Origin: Paracyclopina nana
Taxonomy: Eukaryota; Arthropoda; Copepoda; Cyclopoida; Cyclopettidae
Direction: 5' to 3'
NCBI GenBank assembly: GCA_019096065.1
Contig: JAGUCH010000006.1
Span: 1,756,001 to 1,820,000, forward strand
DNA: 64,000 nt
In this document: in pieces, positions 39,883 through 51,045 of the stretch
How the letters are laid out: each line of letters opens with the position of its first letter
Position numbering within the stretch: position 1 is the first letter of the stretch
Position numbers and translations under genes: made by a program
Notes under the pieces: generated by a model
Databases searched by the model: none
What the model was told of the DNA's origin: nothing
The model's input: the letters and a program-made list of their open reading frames with translations, nothing else

Positions 39883-42800
39883 CTAGTAGGAGGCTGTTTC
39901 GTAAGCTTGCACGTATCCCTGTTGTTCCAAAATGTGCAGACGTTTTTCTACTGCATCCTTGTAGTGTGCCAAGGATTTCTTGTCCTCTTCATTCTGGGTT
40001 TGGAATTGAAGCGCATGCAAAAGAACATGTGCCCCATGATACCTCTGCAAGTTAAATAGAACGCCGTTTCACAATCAAGCTCGACTTTACAAGAACAATT
40101 TCCTTTACCTGAAAGCATTCTTCAGGGTTTCCAAAGAGCTCATCTAAAGCTGCCGCTTGGCATTGCTCTATGGCATAATTGTAGAGAATTTTGTCAGCAG
40201 TGTAGGCCGTGCTATTGGGCTCGAGGCCACTTTCGGCAAGCAAATTCTCAGAGTTCAACATCTTTGTCATAGAGATGCAATGGCGAAATCTTTCATTAAG
40301 CGTTGCAAGAACTGAAAAAGTAAGCAGATGGTGAGTTTTAACAAACTACTTCTCATATTATGTGGGAACGTACTATTTTTCACGGATGTAGACGGCTTAA
40401 GCTTCTTTGCCTTAAGTTCTGCTCGAGACAAGTCCAACGTCTGTGAGAGAATGTGAAGGCAACGCATATAGAGCAAAAGCTGTTGAAGTCGTCTGTGCAG
40501 GGCTGAATTCGGGTCTAACTCTCCTTGTTGGTTCTTCCTGATCACGGATACAGTCTCATCGATAGCAGAGAGTGGAGCTGCTTTATTGCGAGCCACTTCG
40601 ATAATCTTGTCGACCAAGACCGAAATGTACTTCAACTTGGCCAAGATTTCGTTATGCTCTGGAGCCATGAGTGTCTCTTCGGACAATGCTGGTGGTGGCA
40701 TTGCGAGGAATGCAGCCGTCGGGGCCGAGTTCTCCTTTCCTAACGAGGCCAACGAGTGTCCACGACGGGACAAATTCCCCCATGAGCCTGAAATAGAACA
40801 CAATTAATACACGCCCATATTACAAAATCAACAACAAACATGACATACTGGAGCGGTCAAAGCCACCGTAGTTCAGGACAACATTCCTTCCTGACACAAG
40901 TTGAAGTTCAGCACTGCGACGATTGCCAGGGCCTCCGTCGAACCCGGATAAGTTTTCTGGGACAGTGAAAGCCCTTTGAGCCAAAGTCTGGCTGGTATTT
41001 TCCCATTGCATCAAAGCTTTGGAGTCTCCTCCTTCAGCTCCCAAGGGATTATTAAGGTCTAAGCCCATTTTGTTCGGCGAGCCCTGAATTGGAGACAGAG
41101 CAGGAATATTTCCCGCTGATGACGGTATGTTGGATCCCATGGACCTTCTTGAAGGCGACATGGTTGGCACAGCTTTGCCGAAACCTGGGCCTCCTCCAGT
41201 AGCTGGACTATTGGGTGAGATCTGCCACTGAGCATTGGGAGGAGGAGTTCCGCAAGAGCTGCTCGAACTGGTGCGCCGACGGTGACCAAACCCAGTAGTT
41301 GTTGGTGGGGTGCCACCCAATGTAAATTGCACGTTAGGAGGTGATAGCTGGCAAATATCAGGAATGGGCGGGGCAGACATTTTCCTGGATCGATGATCCA
41401 GCAGGGTTTTGGATGGTGATTTGGGGCTTGTCAATGGGCTAAATCTGGCATGCTTGCGCACCTCAGCAGGGCTCTGATCAAAGCGATGCTCCCCTTTAGT
41501 TGCCGCGATCCTGTCTTCTGGCAGTGGACCCAAAGTTGAGCCTCCGGACGCCGAACTGATGCCAGACATGGCAGAAACGGAATCTCCACTTCGGCTTCTC
41601 GATCTTACAAGGCTTTGCTGAATCTGTTGGTAGGCAGCTTTTTGTGTTGGGACTGGGATTGGTTCACTGGTGGGTCCAATCTGCATGGGAAGGTTACTTG
41701 GCCTAGTGGTAACATGAGCACCACTGACGGTGTGCCTGCGACCTCCCGCAGTAAGACTTGGCCGATCCTTGGTACCCATGGTCTTTCGGCTTTCCGCTGC
41801 ATCCATTGTCAAATGAGCTGGAACCATGACGAAATCTTCATTTTCTGCGGCATCAGGACTCGAGCCAGAGCCAGACTCACGTTTGACGACTCTCACTGGA
41901 GCTGATCCGACAGTTATTGGAGGCGATGCAGAGAATCCGGCTGTAATGGGAGATTGATGTTGTACTGACGTAATACAGAGTCATACTATGTAATTGTAAC
42001 TTACTCATTGCCACTGGAGACGGAGGCAGTGCTCCAGGAACTGACTGTCCAGGAGCTGAATTGCGCGGAGTGGTGGAATTGGACACCGGGGTCGATGGAA
42101 CATTGACAGGCTTTGAAGCTGCTGGAGTTGCAGGAATTGCTTTGGTGACGGTAGGAGGTAGCGGAGGGGCTGCAGGAGCCTCAGGTCGGATAAACGGATG
42201 ATTGAAGAAGGTGTCAAAGTCAATGCGATCCCTCGCGTCTCGTTTTAGTAATCCGAAGAGCAAGTTTGTCAGTTCTGGAGAGGTTCCATTGGGAATTCTG
42301 CAAAAAGAGGCCAAAGTTAAAGCAGTTGTTGCAACTCAATTTACTAGCACACCGAACAGAAAAAGTGACGTAGAGAGGAAAGCTGACTGGTCTTCAAAAG
42401 AAAATTTTGGCAAAAGCAACGGAAGTTCACGCAAGACCTAATGTGAAGAAGAGCTTTCTCAAAAACAAGCTCATTTAATTTCCACTGAAAAATCACTTCG
42501 AGGCCGCTCCTGGCTTTTTCCGTGTGGCGTAAAAAAACGAGAACGGACACTGAAAAGCGTCCATGATAACTACACTGAAATTGATGCGAATTCTTGCCTG
42601 GGTGAGAGATTTGCGTTCTTCTCGTAAAAATGCTTGAGGGCCTGCGGCGTTTGTGCTTGGAATGGAGCTTTCCCAGTCAGGCATTGAAAGACAATGGTGC
42701 CCAAGCTCCACAAGTCTGCTTTGGAGTTGTACTGCAGCGACATGATCACCTCAGGCGCCATGTACATGGGAGATCCGCAAAGTGTGGCAGCCATCACTCC

Positions 42801-45800
42801 ATCTTGCAGAAATCGAGCGAAACCGAAATCCGCGATCTTTAGGATGATGTCTTGAGGATGAGGATTTTTCGTCTTTCCCTCGTGGCTGAGCAGAATATTT
42901 TGCGGCTTCAGGTCCCGGTGCACTATATCTTTGCTAACCATAGCTTTCATTGCACCAGCTAGAAATAACATCATACATTAGGTCCATTGAGTGCATTTGA
43001 CAGACATGACGGCGCCTAGTGATAGCAGCACGAGGCCGAGACGTGATTTTCACAATGATGTCACCCAGTGCATGCTGGACAAACAAAGTCTATCTGAGTT
43101 AGTGGAACTTAAAGGAAATTTTCAGAAAATCTGAACTTTATAGCAGGTCATTTACGACCCGCATGCGAAGCGTTCGGACCTCATGATCATAGTCGAGCAA
43201 TAAACGTGCTCTAGATTTTGCAACATCACTCCAGTCGGCCTGGATGATGCTTTAAAAACTGCGCAGCGAAGCAGCTTGCTACAGCTGCGAGCATAAGCAG
43301 GGAGTGGTTGCTGGGCAAAAAGTTTGCATAACAGTCAGCGAGAGAGGCCCACTTTGCAGGCCGTCACGATGATGTGTCACCATCGCAGCATGAATTTATA
43401 TGTTGGGAATTATAAAAATGCACCGTTCTGCCTCTAGCAATATATAGCTAGAATTTCAGAGCTGTGACCAACATCCCAAAATTGCTCATATCTCGAACAG
43501 AAATGCTTTGACGAGTGGGCGGCGTGTTGTAAACAAATGGTTCAACAGCCAATTGTATAATCGGGAGTTTTTTCAATCATTCGAAGCGGCCTTGGAATCA
43601 TCTTCTACTACTTGCAATATTTTCGGATATATGCCAAGCATCATCAGCTGATATCAAAAACAGGATTCAACCAGACTGACGGGCGGCTCAGACCGAGTGT
43701 TGCAAAACTTTGGGGCCTCCTCGCTGCAGACCCATAAATAATAGATGTAATGACTTACCTAGCTGACGCAAAAACAGGCGAATGGTGTCTTCACTCAGAG
43801 TTCCTTTGGCTGAAAGAGAAACGTGATGGTTATTTATGGCAGCTGGTAACGACTACAAAAATCAAATCAACTCGAGCCCCAGGAGGACCTTTTTCATCGC
43901 ATGACGAAGCTACCTCAATAATTATGGATGTAACTGCATTGTGGGCCGAAAACTGCATTTTCAACGCAAGGACTAGCCCTGCAGTTAGTAACACAAAAGT
44001 TTCGATGGCCCCTGCGGAAATTGCCTCTAGCGTGAGTTAATAAACTTTTGGTGGGAGGCCTTAGAAACCATTTGTAATTGCTTCTTTAAAGCTGTCAGAC
44101 AAAGCAGACAGGTACAGAGAGAAGAAAGGTTCAACTGCTATATCATGGCATGGAGCGAGTACTAAAAAAGGTGCAATGAACTCTCTCCCTCCTCTCGGCT
44201 TGTATCCAACTCGGAATTGACAGTGCACCGCTTTTACGAGAATTATTGCATTAAAGAGCTGAAAATGTCCTCACCATTAAGATAGTCGGCCAGGTCGCCT
44301 CCATTGCAAAACTGAAAAGGTAAAGAGGAAAACACATAAAAAGGTGCTCAATAAAATGGCTGGTTTTTAAGTGGTTCAGCCCCAAAAAAGAAGGTCATTG
44401 TACTACGCGGCTTGGGCTATTTTTTTCCTGCTCTTAGAACATTGAACTGGCCCGTCAAGTGCTAGTGTAGTGGAATTCATTGAGTTGGCTCAAATCACGC
44501 AGGCAGCTCGTGGTCTACGTAAAACGCGCAGCTGAGTCTATATCTTATAGCAGTACAAAGGACCTCGGATTTAACTGCGTAATATGGACTCGCGATTCGA
44601 GTTTCAGTCACATATGCTTATTCAATAACTAACAAAATTAGCCCAAACCTAAATCCTGAACCGAAACAATGACACAGGTTTGTTTTAAGGAAGCTTGAAA
44701 AACACTCGTTTGTGAGTGCGTATGTTTGTAATTTCAGGCGCAAAATCTTCAATCTCCAAGTTACATAAACACATCATAAGCAAAAAAAAAATCGAGGACA
44801 CCTTGTTTTGCTTGCGCAGCGGAATATAAAAAAAAACGACCGCGCAGAGCGAAGCTTCAAATTTGGGTCAGATTATCTGTGCACGTCAATCGAACCGCAA
44901 AAGGCTAAAATGTGTGACGGGCATGTGCATTTTTTTGGAGCTGCTTTTGGCATATACCTTTTTTCCTGCTACACTTTTTTATCGCGATGAGAAAGCTTCC
45001 TTGTGATATTTCTAGTTTTGAATGCACCCAAACGATAAGCCTTAAAGAACGTATGCGAAGAGCTTTCTTTTTCCAAGGACAAAATGCAAAGTTCATAAAT
45101 ATCGTACTCATAGCGATCGCACTTTCAGCATAAAGTATAATGTTACATACCTCCATGACAAGGTAGACATGATTTGGAGTTTCCTGTAATGGAGAAAGAG
45201 AAGAAGAGATTAATCAACGTGCATAAGTAAACAAAGCAGAGAGCATCATTGCTACTACGCAAAAGCAGCAAATATTTTAGACACTAGAGCTTTCGAGAAA
45301 AAGCGCACATCTGTTTATAGGATGGGCCATCACCTTTTCATAGCACCTCACCTAGCTCCTAAAATTGCTTTGCACAAGTCTTCTTTGTAGGAGCCAAAAA
45401 ACAGTCAACAAAGAATTGCACAGTCAGCTGGTGTGCTTCGCTCCATATTTACTTATGCTCATATTAGTAGGTCATCATCAATGCCTAACTTTTTGCTACT
45501 CCACTTTCAAGCGGGAAAATCTTAAGGCAGCTTTTTTGTCTTTTTATTCTGTCAGCAGTAGGAGATTAGAGCGCACAGAAATTCAATGCCACCGCCAACA
45601 AGATCTAAAAAAGGCAAACGCACTTCACTGCTTAGCACAGGAGCGTTTTATGGATGACAAAGTGTGAACAGTTGTTCAGCAATGGAAAGAGCGGAAGTTT
45701 AGTTAGTCAACCGAATCGTTTGACTGCAACATTAGCCTTTTTTTTTAAAAAAAAAAATCATTAGCTGCGTGATTTCCTTCCTATTTTAGGTCAAAATGCT

Positions 45801-47865
45801 AATTGCTAAAGGGAAAACCTACCAATGCTTCGGGAAAAGAAATAAGGTCATCATCGATCGCTTTTCATCTTTGTCAGCAAGTACGATGACGACGAACTTC
45901 ATGGCTTGTGATTACTAATTGATCGTTTTTTCACATATTGTCCACCTACGTTGCTATACCTAATTCACAAGAACGCATTTTCAAAAAGGCTGCTGCTAGA
46001 AAAATCCCGAAATTCACATAATTTACTCCTACAACAATAGATGTGTTTTCTGGCAAACGTATAGTGGTGTGCTCTGCATCAATTTTACTATTTTTTTAAA
46101 GCGAAAAACCTTGAACACAAAGCATCAACTAAGCTGCTGATTCCACAGAAAAAACGCAATAAGTGCAATCCTTGCAAGTAGTATGTGATTTAATTTTGCA
46201 GGAAGTCAATGCCACCATAAACGTTAAGGGCTGTGCATATTGACATTCACTCCTCAAGAGAGAAAAACGATGGAAAAATGTATCAAGTTCAAGGCAGGCC
46301 ACTATCTATCGATTCATTCAGAGTTTATGCAGGGAAGAACGTTGGAAAGAAAATATTACGAGCGAAAGGCCCTAATCTACCACGTGATCTCATTACCAGG
46401 GAATTACAATAAAGCTGACTTACCTTGCAATCCAGCAGGGCCACCACATTGTCATGTTGTAATATGGTCAATTCCTGCAAAAAATAAGGCGGAATTTATG
46501 AGCGTCAAATAGGCAATCAATGACGTCGCACGTTGAGTGCATGTCAAATATAGGCCAACGAACGACGTAAAAAGGTTTCGGTTAAATTAGGCAAAAGAGA
46601 GGAGAAAGCAATTGCGTACCTTTAGAATTTTTATTTCCTTCCCGAGGAGATTCTGAGATTTGGCCAAGTTCTTCTTGGTGATTGCCTTAATGGCAACAAC
46701 TTGGTTGGGCCTCTGTGGAAGATAAGAGAGAAAAGCATTAGGTTACAATTTCTTCTCGAGGGATCGATCGGTTTCCTATGGCTGTTTTTTCCCCTGACAA
46801 AGGGGTTTCTCCGCTGCAGCGAACTGCATCGATCGAGCTGTTACTAAGGCTTTATTTGTGAACTGCATGGGGCTTTCCAGAGAATCCTTTCATGTAGGTG
46901 AGTCAAAGATTGTTATTTTGGCCAGCAACGTGACTGGCCATGATGAAATTTTGCAACACTACCAAAAATCAATTTGGGCAAGTGTTTTTCACAACAATCC
47001 CCTTTGTGGCTCCTGGCAACAACGGGAGAAGCTCAGCGTGGTGCGTAATTCTAACCCTGGCAGCTAACGTAAAAACAAAGAGGAGGTCTCACTGCTTTCA
47101 TGCAAGCTTTGTACACAATGGAGAACGACCCATGGCCGATGATCTCCTGAGTATGCGGCACGATGTCCACCATGGTTGCTAGTTTGACAATGTTCACAGC
47201 CTGGTCAAGTATCACAGAACAGGAAAGGCTTTCTTGGCCTCTTGACTGTTGGGTCTTTTCATTACTACACGCGCTCCTATTATGACTGAGAGGTGCGTGG
47301 GCCTTTGCAACAATAACGAAACTGATGCGAGTGCGGTTGGTCAATGGAGTGAACTAGCACCTGGCCGAGTGTCTGACTGTCTTTGAGCTGTCGTCGTGCA
47401 GGAGCAGCAGCTAGCGCGAGCTCGCGCACCCCGAATAACACAAAGCCAAGTGCGTCGTCCGACAATCTCACGGCTACATCCGCTACGTACGGCGACGATA
47501 TTGAGCTCGCAGAGAAAGCCGAAAACAATAATTATGATGAAATTCCAATCTGCTACTGCGCAAACTAAACAGCAGCTAGCATCTGTGCCAAGCATGGCTG
47601 TGCGTTGTCGCACCGATGCAGTTGACACGCGCGTTAGCAAAAACGTCATTTCAAAGCGGCTTTTGCCGACGCAATTACACCAGGACAAGTTGAGGCAAAC
47701 AACGAAGCTAAAGCACACTAGATCGATACCAAAGCGACATGAGTCATGCGTGTTTACGGTCAGAAAAGCACTCACCATTTTGACCCGTCCACGGTAGACC
47801 ACGGCGAAGGCTCCATGGCCGATCAGCTCCTTGGAGTTGTACTCGTAGATGCCGATGGACTCCAT
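39883..47865 (-). CDS. ULK: ULK/Atg1 autophagy-initiating protein kinase
   Basis: ULK1/2 (Atg1) starts autophagosome formation with Atg13, FIP200 and Atg101. Twelve minus-strand exons: 47865-47776, 46712-46620, 46474-46424, 45183-45151, 44311-44275, 43809-43759, 42958-42598, 42297-42005, 41940-40849, 40787-40374, 40311-40109, 40044-39883. They give 959 aa in frame, between fly Atg1 and human ULK1. The kinase domain is at the N-terminus: [10 protein letters not shown] glycine loop (about 15-24), Lys39 in [12 protein letters not shown] (132-139), DFGFAR from 162, and [11 protein letters not shown] Ser/Pro-rich linker of several hundred residues follows, with many SP sites. Then comes the helical C-terminal (MIT-like) domain that binds Atg13, including [20 protein letters not shown] and LNERFRHCI. 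Intron 7 appears to use a GC donor (AG|GCAAGA). A second possible first exon lies at 47173-47093. Confidence 0.93.
47093..47173 (-). CDS. ULK: alternative first coding exon of ULK
   Basis: This 27-codon frame begins [20 protein letters not shown] and ends YKACMKA before a GTGAGA donor. It is a second version of the kinase glycine-rich loop, parallel to [16 protein letters not shown] in the 47865-47776 exon. It ends in phase 0, so it can splice to the same next exon (starting RPNQVVAIK) and give a 956-aa kinase. It lies between the first exon and the shared second exon. Both copies have an initiator ATG, so alternative promoters are the simplest reading. Mutually exclusive splicing would also work if an acceptor upstream of this exon is used. 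No other gene is present that the exon could belong to. Confidence 0.75.
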
Positions 47866-49104
47866 GATGCGAACAACTGGATGAATATAAGGGTGAAACT
47901 GAATTTAGGTCAAGCAATGGTGGTTCTTTTCGGCTGCGGCCATCAGAGCTTCTTCGTCCCGAATGCTCTGAATAATGGAACGTCGTTCGACTGTGCTCCT
48001 CTCTAGCGCACAACCAACATTTATTTTTAGATATTTGGCTTTCTTTCCTCTCGCTCCACAATTGGAAAGTCCCGCTACTCTTCCGTTTCTAATCTCACTT
48101 TGATGACAAGCAAAATGTTACAGGCTTCGTTTGGTCGTCAGGCAAAGCAGTGGAATCTTCGTCGTCGTTTTTCTGGATGAATTTTCAGGCTTGTCGTCGA
48201 CTAAGGGCCGTTTAGTTTTTCTTGAAAGGCAAATGGCGATGACCCTCACCAGTCGACTAGTGTTTTTTGACTGCTGATGAGCGACAAAAACTACGACTCG
48301 AGCAAAGAAGGGATCTGAAAAATAGTCCTCAAATAAGTCTTCCAGGGAATTGAAAAGCTCCAACAGCATGCTATTTTCGCAGCGTTTACCTGATCTTTAA
48401 CCTGCCTTCATTTCGCGAATTTATAATCACGCGCTGCGATTTGACGGAAAAAAAGATATTCGTGAAGTCCCTCACAATTACAAAATGCGGAATAATTCCT
48501 TCTGCTCAGCTGTGATCAATGCGAAAAGGAGAGAAGGGCTAAAGAAGTTTAACTTTTTTTGGTCTTGTTATCGTTACCTATTTATTATGAAAATGCAACG
48601 CAAAGTAAGATCTATCTAGCTGGAGTAGGATTCAAATTGATTCGGAATAATTTATGAACAGGCAGTGGCTAAAAATAAATTTGTTGTCGTTTTCTTTGGC
48701 CTTTTCTTTGTTTTCACATCTAAAAGTGGACCTGGCTCGACGCTCAGCCTGAGTTCGACGGGAAACGGCTCTACAATTATGAGGCAAGCATCATATTATT
48801 TCGGACATGACAGCGAAAAAAGCCTAGTTCCATAGTTCCAGAAAATATTCATAGTCTAAACAAGAATTAAAACTCATTATTTTACCAACTTGACCTGTTT
48901 CCAGATTATATTTCATTTTCATGTAACTCAAGAAGAAGACTTAGTTTGCGATCCACCATTCCAAATCTGCTTTGAAAACATCGGTCGAAAACTGGCAAAA
49001 CATTTCGTGGCTCTTTTGAATTTTTACGAAAATCGCTGAGAATCAAGTGCATCCTAGAATTTCTCGCGTAGAAGTGTCGGCCTTTCGGTTGGAAATCTTC
49101 AGCC
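47866..49104. other. divergent upstream region of ULK and RPB11
   Basis: No gene is supported. The first part should hold the ULK 5' UTR; a possible leader-intron acceptor (CATCCAG|TTG) lies 12 nt upstream of the ULK ATG. The rest is AT-rich and serves as the shared 5' flank for the divergent pair. Confidence 0.5.
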
Positions 49105-49523
49105 ATGAACGCACCGCCGACATTCGAGTCATTTTTGCTGTTTGACGGCGAAAAAAAGATCACCAAGGAGCAAGACACCAAAGTTCCCAATGCTTCCATT
49201 TTCACCATCAACAAGGCAAGATTTTTTGTTGTGACCGCTTCTCATCTGCGTTTTATAATAATTATTTGCATCAATAGGAGGACCACACCCTCGGTAATAT
49301 GATTCGTTGTCAACTCTTGAAAGATCCCAACGTGCTGTTCGCCGGCTACAAAAATCCCCATCCTCTGGAGCACAAAATCATCTTGAGAATTCAAACCACC
49401 TCCGATTACACGCCACAAGACGCTCTGCGTAACGCCATCACTGATTTGATTTCCGAATTGTCCTTGTTCGAGGAGCGTTTCAAGGAGTCCGTGAGGGAGA
49501 AGCAAGAAGGAGGATACGAGTAA
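49105..49523 (+). CDS. POLR2J: RNA polymerase II subunit RPB11
   Basis: RPB11 pairs with RPB3 as the alpha-like heterodimer that nucleates Pol II assembly. Exons 49105-49215 and 49278-49523 give 118 aa, against 117 in human. Recognisable segments are [47 protein letters not shown], and [18 protein letters not shown]. The 62-bp intron has a GC donor (AAG|GCAAGA) and an AG acceptor; no GT option keeps the conserved INK|EDHTLGN junction. The stop is only 15 nt before the RPA12 start and no poly(A) hexamer lies in the gap. Confidence 0.95.
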
Positions 49524-49538
49524 AAAAGAAGTGCGATC

Positions 49539-49898
49539 ATGGAGTCCGCGTTTACAACCGAGGCTGCATTTTGCTCTGCTTGTGGAGCGTTATTACCAAG
49601 CCTTCCTGAAACAGGAAATTCAGTCGTTTGTGTTGCGTGCAAATATTCGGCTCCCATTGAATCGTTTGCCGGACGAGAGACTTCATACACAGTGATTTTC
49701 AATAAGCGTGAAAACACGACACGAAGAGCTGCTGGCGATGACGATGAAGAAGATGGGCCAACCATCGAAAGAAAATGCCCCAAATGTGGCCATGACAAAA
49801 TGTCCTATGCTGCTCTCCAACTCAGATCAGCTGATGAGGGTCAGACTGTATTCTTCACCTGCTTGAAGTGCAAGTTCAAAGAGAGTGAAAACTCATAA
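49539..49898 (+). CDS. POLR1H: RNA polymerase I subunit RPA12
   Basis: RPA12 is the Pol I subunit with a TFIIS-like zinc ribbon that supports transcript cleavage and termination. It is a single-exon 119-aa frame. The N-terminal zinc ribbon uses C12/C15 and C31/C34. An acidic linker (DDDEED) follows. The C-terminal ribbon uses C80/C83 and C108/C111, with the invariant acidic Asp-Glu pair at 99-100 within RSADEGQTVFFTC. The length is close to human (126 aa). It sits 15 nt after RPB11 and its TAA is 4 nt before the next ATG. I see no promoter of its own and no AATAAA within it, so a shared transcript is likely. Confidence 0.95.
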   Translation: MESAFTTEAAFCSACGALLPSLPETGNSVVCVACKYSAPIESFAGRETSYTVIFNKRENTTRRAAGDDDEEDGPTIERKCPKCGHDKMSYAALQLRSADEGQTVFFTCLKCKFKESENS

Positions 49899-49902
49899 GA
49901 CA

Positions 49903-51045
49903 ATGGGCTCATCGAGTGAGAGTTGGTGCAGACTTTGCACCACCTACTTGAACAATGACAATAATGTAACCTTATTTGACAAAGAAACGCCCCACATCGT
50001 GGTGGAGAAGCTGAGGCAATTCGTCAATTTGCCTGTAAGTCCACATGACAACCTTCCTCAAAAAGTGTGCCACAGCTGCGTCGTCAATCTCGACTTTTGC
50101 ATCCAATTCGTCGATCGATGTAGACGAGTCGCAGATCTGTTGCTGAGTGGTTCAAATCAAGACAATATCCATTCGCAATTGGCCTACCATTATCCCTATC
50201 TCTATGGCTCGTTGCAAAATACAGAGGCCAACTCGCAGACTGTTCCATTTCAACCTGGAGCCTTTTTTGGGCCCTCACAAAACATTCTCGAGTGCACGCC
50301 GACCGATGGGGAAAAAGTGGCCACAAATGACTCCAATAAGGTGGCCATGTTTCGCCATGATGTCAATGTGGATAACATGGTCGTAGAAGTGGAGCCCAAT
50401 GCAATCCTCACCCGTCCGAAGCTGCCAGCTCGGCCAAAAGTGGCTGAGAATGTAAATATGGACAAGAAATCGATCAAGGTCCGGAAGATATTGCCCAAAA
50501 ACTCGAGAAGCTCGGCCATGATCACGAACGCTCCTGACTTGCAAATCACCATACCGAATCCGAATGCAGTGAAAACGAGCAATCAAGAAGGCCAATACAT
50601 GATTCCTGTCACTCTCATTACTCCGTGTAAAACATGTAATGCGCAAATCAAAGCCTCCAGTGTGCAAGACATTCGCAATCACGTGTGCTCGAAAAAAGAC
50701 AAGAATGTTTTGTGCTCGGTAGAAGGCTGCGACAAAAAGTTTTTTTCGCAATTTACCCTGCGATACCATTTGAGGCATTACCACAAAATCGGCCAAATCT
50801 CCAACAAGGGGACGAAAACGAGTTCAGTTGAAAGGGGAGAAGTCACTCCAAACAATGCCAGTCCGCAGAAGAAATTTGTTTGTTCATGGCCCGAGTGTAC
50901 GAAGTCATATCGAGCGGAATCTTACTTAATAGAACACCACCGAAAGCACACTGGGGACAAGCCTTTCACGTGCTCCAACTGTGGCAAGGGATTTTCGCGA
51001 GTTCTCGATGTGAAGAAACACGAATTGCTTAAAGTATGCCATTAA
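49903..51045 (+). CDS. ZAD-domain C2H2 zinc-finger protein
   Basis: A probable DNA-binding transcription factor of 380 aa, encoded without introns. The N-terminal ZAD uses paired cysteines C9/C12 (WCRLC) and C56/C59 (VCHSC), with the VVEKLRQF and DFCIQFVDRCR helices expected for dimerisation. A long basic, low-complexity linker follows. The C-terminus has a CKTC-type motif, two clear C2H2 fingers (CSVEGC...HLRHYH and CSWPEC...HHRKH), a TGDKPF linker, and a final finger CSNCGKGFSRVLDVKKH ending in C or H at the very terminus. ZAD zinc fingers are typical of arthropods and evolve quickly, so no specific orthologue is named. The ATG is 4 nt after the RPA12 stop, in a GACAATGG context. Confidence 0.9.
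   Translation: MGSSSESWCRLCTTYLNNDNNVTLFDKETPHIVVEKLRQFVNLPVSPHDNLPQKVCHSCVVNLDFCIQFVDRCRRVADLLLSGSNQDNIHSQLAYHYPYLYGSLQNTEANSQTVPFQPGAFFGPSQNILECTPTDGEKVATNDSNKVAMFRHDVNVDNMVVEVEPNAILTRPKLPARPKVAENVNMDKKSIKVRKILPKNSRSSAMITNAPDLQITIPNPNAVKTSNQEGQYMIPVTLITPCKTCNAQIKASSVQDIRNHVCSKKDKNVLCSVEGCDKKFFSQFTLRYHLRHYHKIGQISNKGTKTSSVERGEVTPNNASPQKKFVCSWPECTKSYRAESYLIEHHRKHTGDKPFTCSNCGKGFSRVLDVKKHELLKVCH

Follow-up and report, generated by a model that had tools for sequence, protein, structure and literature searches.

The question raised by this locus is whether a single autophagy kinase gene can carry two versions of its ATP-binding loop, each on a start exon of its own. The window, that is, the whole stretch of DNA analysed, comprises 64,000 nt of a contig of the copepod Paracyclopina nana (JAGUCH010000006.1, positions 1,756,001 to 1,820,000, forward strand), and all coordinates refer to it. 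A ULK/Atg1 gene lies on the minus strand, spanning approximately 47865 to 39900. A preliminary description placed two ATG exons at its 5' end, 47865-47776 and 47173-47093, both joining in phase 0 to the VAIK exon that begins at 46712; these coordinates, the reading frames and the GT donors are confirmed here. The gene is organized as follows:

47776..47865, minus strand: exon 1a, the canonical first coding exon (90 nt, 30 residues, phase 0, ATG start, loop GHGAFAVVY)
47866..47876, minus strand: candidate 5' UTR portion of exon 1a, requiring an acceptor before 47876 (rank 5/164)
47093..47173, minus strand: exon 1b, putative tandem copy of the first coding exon (81 nt, 27 residues, phase 0, ATG start, loop GHGSFSIVY)
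47174..47200, minus strand: possible in-phase extension of exon 1b, requiring a weak acceptor before 47200 (rank 16/164)
46620..46712, minus strand: exon 2, common to both forms (31 residues, carries the VAIK lysine)
46424..46474, minus strand: exon 3, common to both forms (spliced translation)
45151..45183, minus strand: exon 4, common to both forms (spliced translation)
44275..44311, minus strand: exon 5, common to both forms (spliced translation)
43759..43809, minus strand: exon 6, common to both forms (spliced translation)
42598..42958, minus strand: exon 7, common to both forms, followed by an apparent GC-AG intron
42150..42297, minus strand: exon 8, partial, end of the kinase domain; the boundary at 42150 is an arbitrary cut
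39883..40695, minus strand: C-terminal region with ATG1-like MIT domains; approximate span, junctions provisional

Either start exon, joined to exons 2-8 (exon 8 partial), gives an uninterrupted kinase domain. The spliced translation of both forms contains the glycine-rich loop and the catalytic motifs VAIK, HRD and DFG. Exons 1a and 1b are adjacent, homologous and of equal phase, as is characteristic of tandem duplicated exons. A scan of the minus strand of 46713-49100 for G-x-G-x-[FYW] revealed no third loop exon.

Judged by its sequence matches, the gene is ULK1/2-Atg1. Specifically, when the 1b form of the kinase was compared with the sequences of solved structures, every match at E <= 1e-60 (8 distinct sequences) was ULK1 or ULK2, with a top score of 372.5 bits. 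The C-terminal region, queried as a translation hand-joined from three reading frames, matches PF21127 (MIT2) at 9.8e-11 and 42.3 bits, above the cut-off of 27.6, and PF12063 (MIT1) at 19.6 bits, below the cut-off of 22.5; thus, one of the two tandem MIT domains is recognized. The 108-residue C-terminal piece by itself was assigned to no family. A search of the copepod's own genome with the 1b N-lobe, in which 20 candidates were scored, recovered exons 2, 1b and 3 of the ULK gene; elsewhere, matches were weak, with a best E of 0.002 and identities of 35 to 50 per cent or lower. Exon 1a is missing among the 20 scored candidates, indicating that this search was not exhaustive; among these candidates we see one apparent ULK1/2 locus. 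The 78-residue N-lobe with exon 1a was also searched for in viral contigs (36 pattern stretches, none confirmed) and in prokaryote contigs (251 stretches, none confirmed); these sets are silent on conservation.

Exon 1b fits the kinase fold as well as exon 1a does in one family model and nearly as well in another. Pfam PF00069 scores 227.6 bits with 1b, 225.4 bits with 1a and 207.9 bits with neither, and PF07714 scores 156.4 bits with 1a, 153.7 bits with 1b and 137.7 bits with neither. Exon 1a with exons 2-3 aligns to ULK2 from query residue 1 (85.5 bits). The top solved-structure matches of exon 1b with exons 2-3 are likewise ULK1/ULK2, with exons 2-3 supplying most of the score. The 1b N-lobe is nevertheless less ULK-like than the 1a N-lobe (64.1 vs 85.5 bits at best), which counts against it, and on its own, exon 1b (27 residues) matches no solved structure at E 10 or below.

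The two loops are rare and, as protein, resemble each other more than they resemble the other loops compared. The best other ungapped match of the 18-residue core of 1a in the six frames of the window is 1b, with a BLOSUM score of 57 (runner-up 28). The pattern G-H-G-x-F-x-x-V-Y, restricted to NSN at the fourth codon and NTN at the seventh, occurs at 2 places in the 92-Mb genome, namely exons 1a and 1b, and its reversal at 0. The looser pattern G-x-G-x-F-x-[NTN]-V-Y occurs at 18 places genome-wide and its reversed control at 6, so some of the 18 are due to chance; among these 18 places, a histidine between the glycines is found only in 1a and 1b. Within the loop the two exons differ by conservative changes (A/S twice, V/I, R/K), and after the loop by less conservative ones (G/A, R/C, V/M, M/A); their starts also differ.

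For a comparison of loops, 15 of the 18 loose-pattern places were taken, with C2:6333143, C4:8774096 and C5:2330032 omitted by eye. Of the 14 loops set against 1b, that of 1a scores highest as protein, at 42 (next 37). Over the 27 bases of loop DNA, 1b is identical to 1a at 20/27 positions and to other kinases at up to 19, which gives no separation and counts against the duplication reading. Capture of 1b from another kinase is considered less likely; protein scores favour 1a, but DNA identity does not discriminate. Both exons encode the histidine, end in one splice phase and belong to one gene, which speaks for a tandem copy of the ULK start exon and against such capture.

The manner in which the exons have diverged bears on whether 1b has been kept for its protein. 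In the core, 9/18 residues are identical (also 9 over 27 codons), and codon positions 1 and 2 are alike at 25/36 sites, compared with 8/18 for position 3. The NG86 estimates are dN 0.44, dS 1.05 and omega 0.42 for the core, and dN 0.61, dS 1.17 and omega 0.52 over 27 codons; they were used in place of a maximum-likelihood dS near 26, which was discarded as unusable. By itself, the NG86 omega would not exclude that one of the copies is neutral. When 1a was copied neutrally to a distance of 0.5 per site, at which third-position divergence is matched, 0.9 per cent of 20,000 runs were as similar as observed and 0.015 per cent combined every feature. With 0.2 per site, these shares rose to 49 and 4 per cent, but third positions were then too alike, with 8/18 or fewer in 0.3 per cent of 300 runs.

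Because exon 1b was noticed for being intact, the simulation was also conditioned on intactness. Specifically, 250,000 neutral copies were generated at distances from 0 to 1.2 and filtered for an ATG, an open frame, G-x-G-x-F/Y-x-x-V, a GT donor and a similarity of 57 or more. Intact copies numbered 13,308, and third positions were alike in 8/18 or fewer in 14 of them, figures that hold for 18 codons, an ungapped alignment and a simple model with 1a standing in for the ancestor. A loop that is kept while third positions diverge is thus rare among neutral relics, which suggests protein-level selection after the duplication and speaks for such selection on both exons. On the best reading, exon 1b stems from an old tandem duplication of the first coding exon and would have been retained by selection. 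The earlier proposal that two homologous start exons would give one ULK kinase two N-lobes has the support of the sequence, the family scores and the neutral-decay test.

The splice sites and the sequence upstream bear on how one exon would be chosen over the other. Sites in 46500-49100 (136 GTs, 164 AGs) were ranked with a generic self-made matrix. The donor of exon 1a (ATG/GTGAGT) ranks 1/136 and the exon 2 acceptor at 46712 ranks 1/164, whereas the donor of exon 1b (GCA/GTGAGA) is moderate, ranking 9/136, which counts against use of 1b. An in-frame stop lies 14 codons upstream of the 1a ATG. Both exons open with their own ATG. In the unspliced leader, a short upstream ORF of 16 residues (47262-47212, minus strand) lies ahead of the 1b ATG; as predicted from the sequence, it might lower the translation of 1b if splicing does not remove it.

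Initiator-like TCAGTY motifs precede the ATG of 1b by 150 and 114 nt and that of 1a by 35 nt (47323, 47287 and 47900, minus strand); neither strand of 46500-49200 has any other. The motif was calibrated on 40/143 Ras-family matches, picked for a match start at profile position 1 or 2 and not comprising all such matches; 6 of these, in which no ATG lay before a stop, were set aside, and for the remaining 34 the start was placed at the nearest in-frame ATG. No enrichment was observed before these 34 starts of the genome (3 sense hits vs 3.2 expected; antisense hits in 2 genes), and the motifs were accordingly dropped as promoter evidence.

We propose, with a probability of about 0.6, that a tandem-duplicated and selected ULK start exon gives one kinase two ATP loops, with transcription starting upstream leading to 1a and transcription starting between the exons leading to 1b. 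Specifically, an ancient tandem duplication would have doubled the first coding exon of the ULK1/2-Atg1 gene. Of the two copies, the upstream one (1a) would have kept the canonical ULK sequence, and the downstream one (1b) would have diverged under protein-level selection. In transcripts starting upstream, 1a would be spliced to 46712; in those starting between the exons, 1b would be spliced to the same acceptor. The product would be one kinase with two alternative N-terminal β1 strands and ATP loops, the two forms probably being employed in different tissues or conditions. We infer that 1b is transcribed, that it has a promoter of its own and that the two forms differ in activity or regulation. 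The weak acceptor before 1b fits 1b as a first exon and favours separate promoters, which would be our first choice for the mode by which 1b is selected.

The interpretation in the preliminary description is thus upheld in part: two homologous start exons are supported, but first-exon choice is a candidate mode, and 1b could instead be spliced behind a leader shared with 1a. The two exons would then be alternatives downstream of a common non-coding leader, each with its own ATG, and splicing rather than promoter choice would decide between them. The 50 codons inspected before the 1b ATG are free of in-frame stops and an in-phase AG acceptor lies 27 nt upstream of that ATG, which together make such a leader possible; acceptor-like sites precede both 1a (47876, rank 5/164) and 1b (47200, rank 16/164), and well-scoring donors lie further upstream at 48250, 48390 and 48099 (ranks 2, 4 and 5 of 136). 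However, the 1b acceptor is weak, and because the 27-nt extension is in phase 0, joint inclusion of 1a and 1b would leave the frame intact, so exclusion of one exon by the other is not enforced. We regard this arrangement as unlikely, though ahead of the two alternatives that follow. The moderate 1b donor and the possible upstream ORF would also suit an unused relic of exon duplication, preserved by chance or with its regulation only recently disabled. We find this improbable, in that start, frame, loop residues and donor are all intact despite the third-position divergence, a combination matched by only 14/13,308 comparable neutral relics. Least probable of all, in our estimate, is that the 1b form has low or no catalysis and holds back the autophagy initiation complex, as a decoy or a brake. 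In its favour, 1a and 1b differ most ahead of the loop, where 1b is not ULK-like: its alignment with ULK1/2 begins only at residue 8 or 9. Against it, G-x-G-x-F-x-x-V is retained and the PF00069 score is not below that of 1a.

Head-to-head with the ULK gene lies an operon-like array on the plus strand (49105-51045), with intergenic gaps of 15 and 4 nt:

stop at 49521-49523, plus strand: RPB11, first of the array
49539-49898, plus strand: RPA12-like Pol I subunit, second of the array
49903-51045, plus strand: zf-AD/C2H2 protein, third of the array

By its layout, the array looks like a polycistronic transcript uniting Pol II and Pol I subunits; promoters within the upstream coding sequences of the array are possible. 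Given the usual distribution of the zf-AD domain, the zinc-finger gene suggests an arthropod source. Among the donors inspected, two belong to apparent GC-AG introns, one in the ULK gene after exon 7 (42597-42298, minus strand) and the other, of 62 nt, in RPB11 (49216-49277, plus strand). Both have the identical donor start AG/GCAAGA, and the conserved reading frame is kept in both.

Both components of the proposed arrangement have precedents. In Fyn, tandem duplicated exons swap the N-terminal part of the kinase, including the ATP-binding site (PMC9741552, PMC5339870). Fyn (FynB/FynT) resembles the present case in having tandem homologous exons in one kinase gene that exchange part of the ATP site, and differs in being a tyrosine kinase with mutually exclusive exons that span the SH2-kinase linker. 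In the ULK gene, by contrast, both exons carry their own start codons, the encoded kinase is of the Ser/Thr type, and the use of 1b is putative. Clustered protocadherins and chelicerate sDscam have tandem start exons, each with its own promoter, that are spliced to shared exons (PMC4835542). These 5' cassettes are likewise tandem homologous start exons joining common downstream exons; sDscam has many copies that vary Ig domains, whereas the ULK gene has two copies that vary a catalytic loop, with a putative promoter.

ULK1, ULK2 and Atg1 share with the present gene the kinase domain, the GHGAFAVV loop of 1a and the C-terminal MIT2 domain; the second ATP-loop exon sets it apart from these kinases as described in the literature searched. 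Searches combined ULK/Atg1 with isoforms, alternative promoters or alternative first exons; among the titles and abstracts listed, which in one case were the best 20 of 216, none describes a second ATP-loop exon. Their scope lay outside most subscription journals and outside genome annotation records, and the latter may already predict such an isoform. ATG1 isoforms are said to exist in insects, with differences unspecified (PMC10335856), a predicted 'ULK2 isoform X2' is named in a leafhopper, again with the difference unspecified (PMC12453401), and 'isoform' denotes ULK1 vs ULK2 in PMC4277463; the words 'isoform' and 'splice' are absent from the main text of PMC4979118. Thus, exchange of ATP-site exons and tandem start exons are each known, and neither was found for ULK in the literature searched. 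The novelty suggested in the preliminary description is accordingly to be narrowed to ULK, for which these searches gave no report; exchange of an exon with the ATP-binding region of a kinase is already known for Fyn (PMC9741552).

What such an arrangement would mean can be stated conditionally. We put forward, tentatively and with less confidence than the proposal itself, that this metazoan autophagy-initiating kinase has two ATP-loop versions, selected by promoter and under separate regulation. A single gene could then adjust nucleotide handling by Atg1, or regulation of its loop, to tissue or condition. The two serines in the loop of 1b, absent in 1a, come to mind in this respect; that they are phosphorylation sites is speculation. 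In human, ULK1 and ULK2 are separate genes. If the proposal is true, a second ATP-loop exon would be another route to two autophagy kinases, here from one gene. It would also provide a natural experiment on roles of the Atg1 glycine-rich loop beyond ATP binding and, beside Fyn, a further case in which a catalytic element is exchanged via exon choice.
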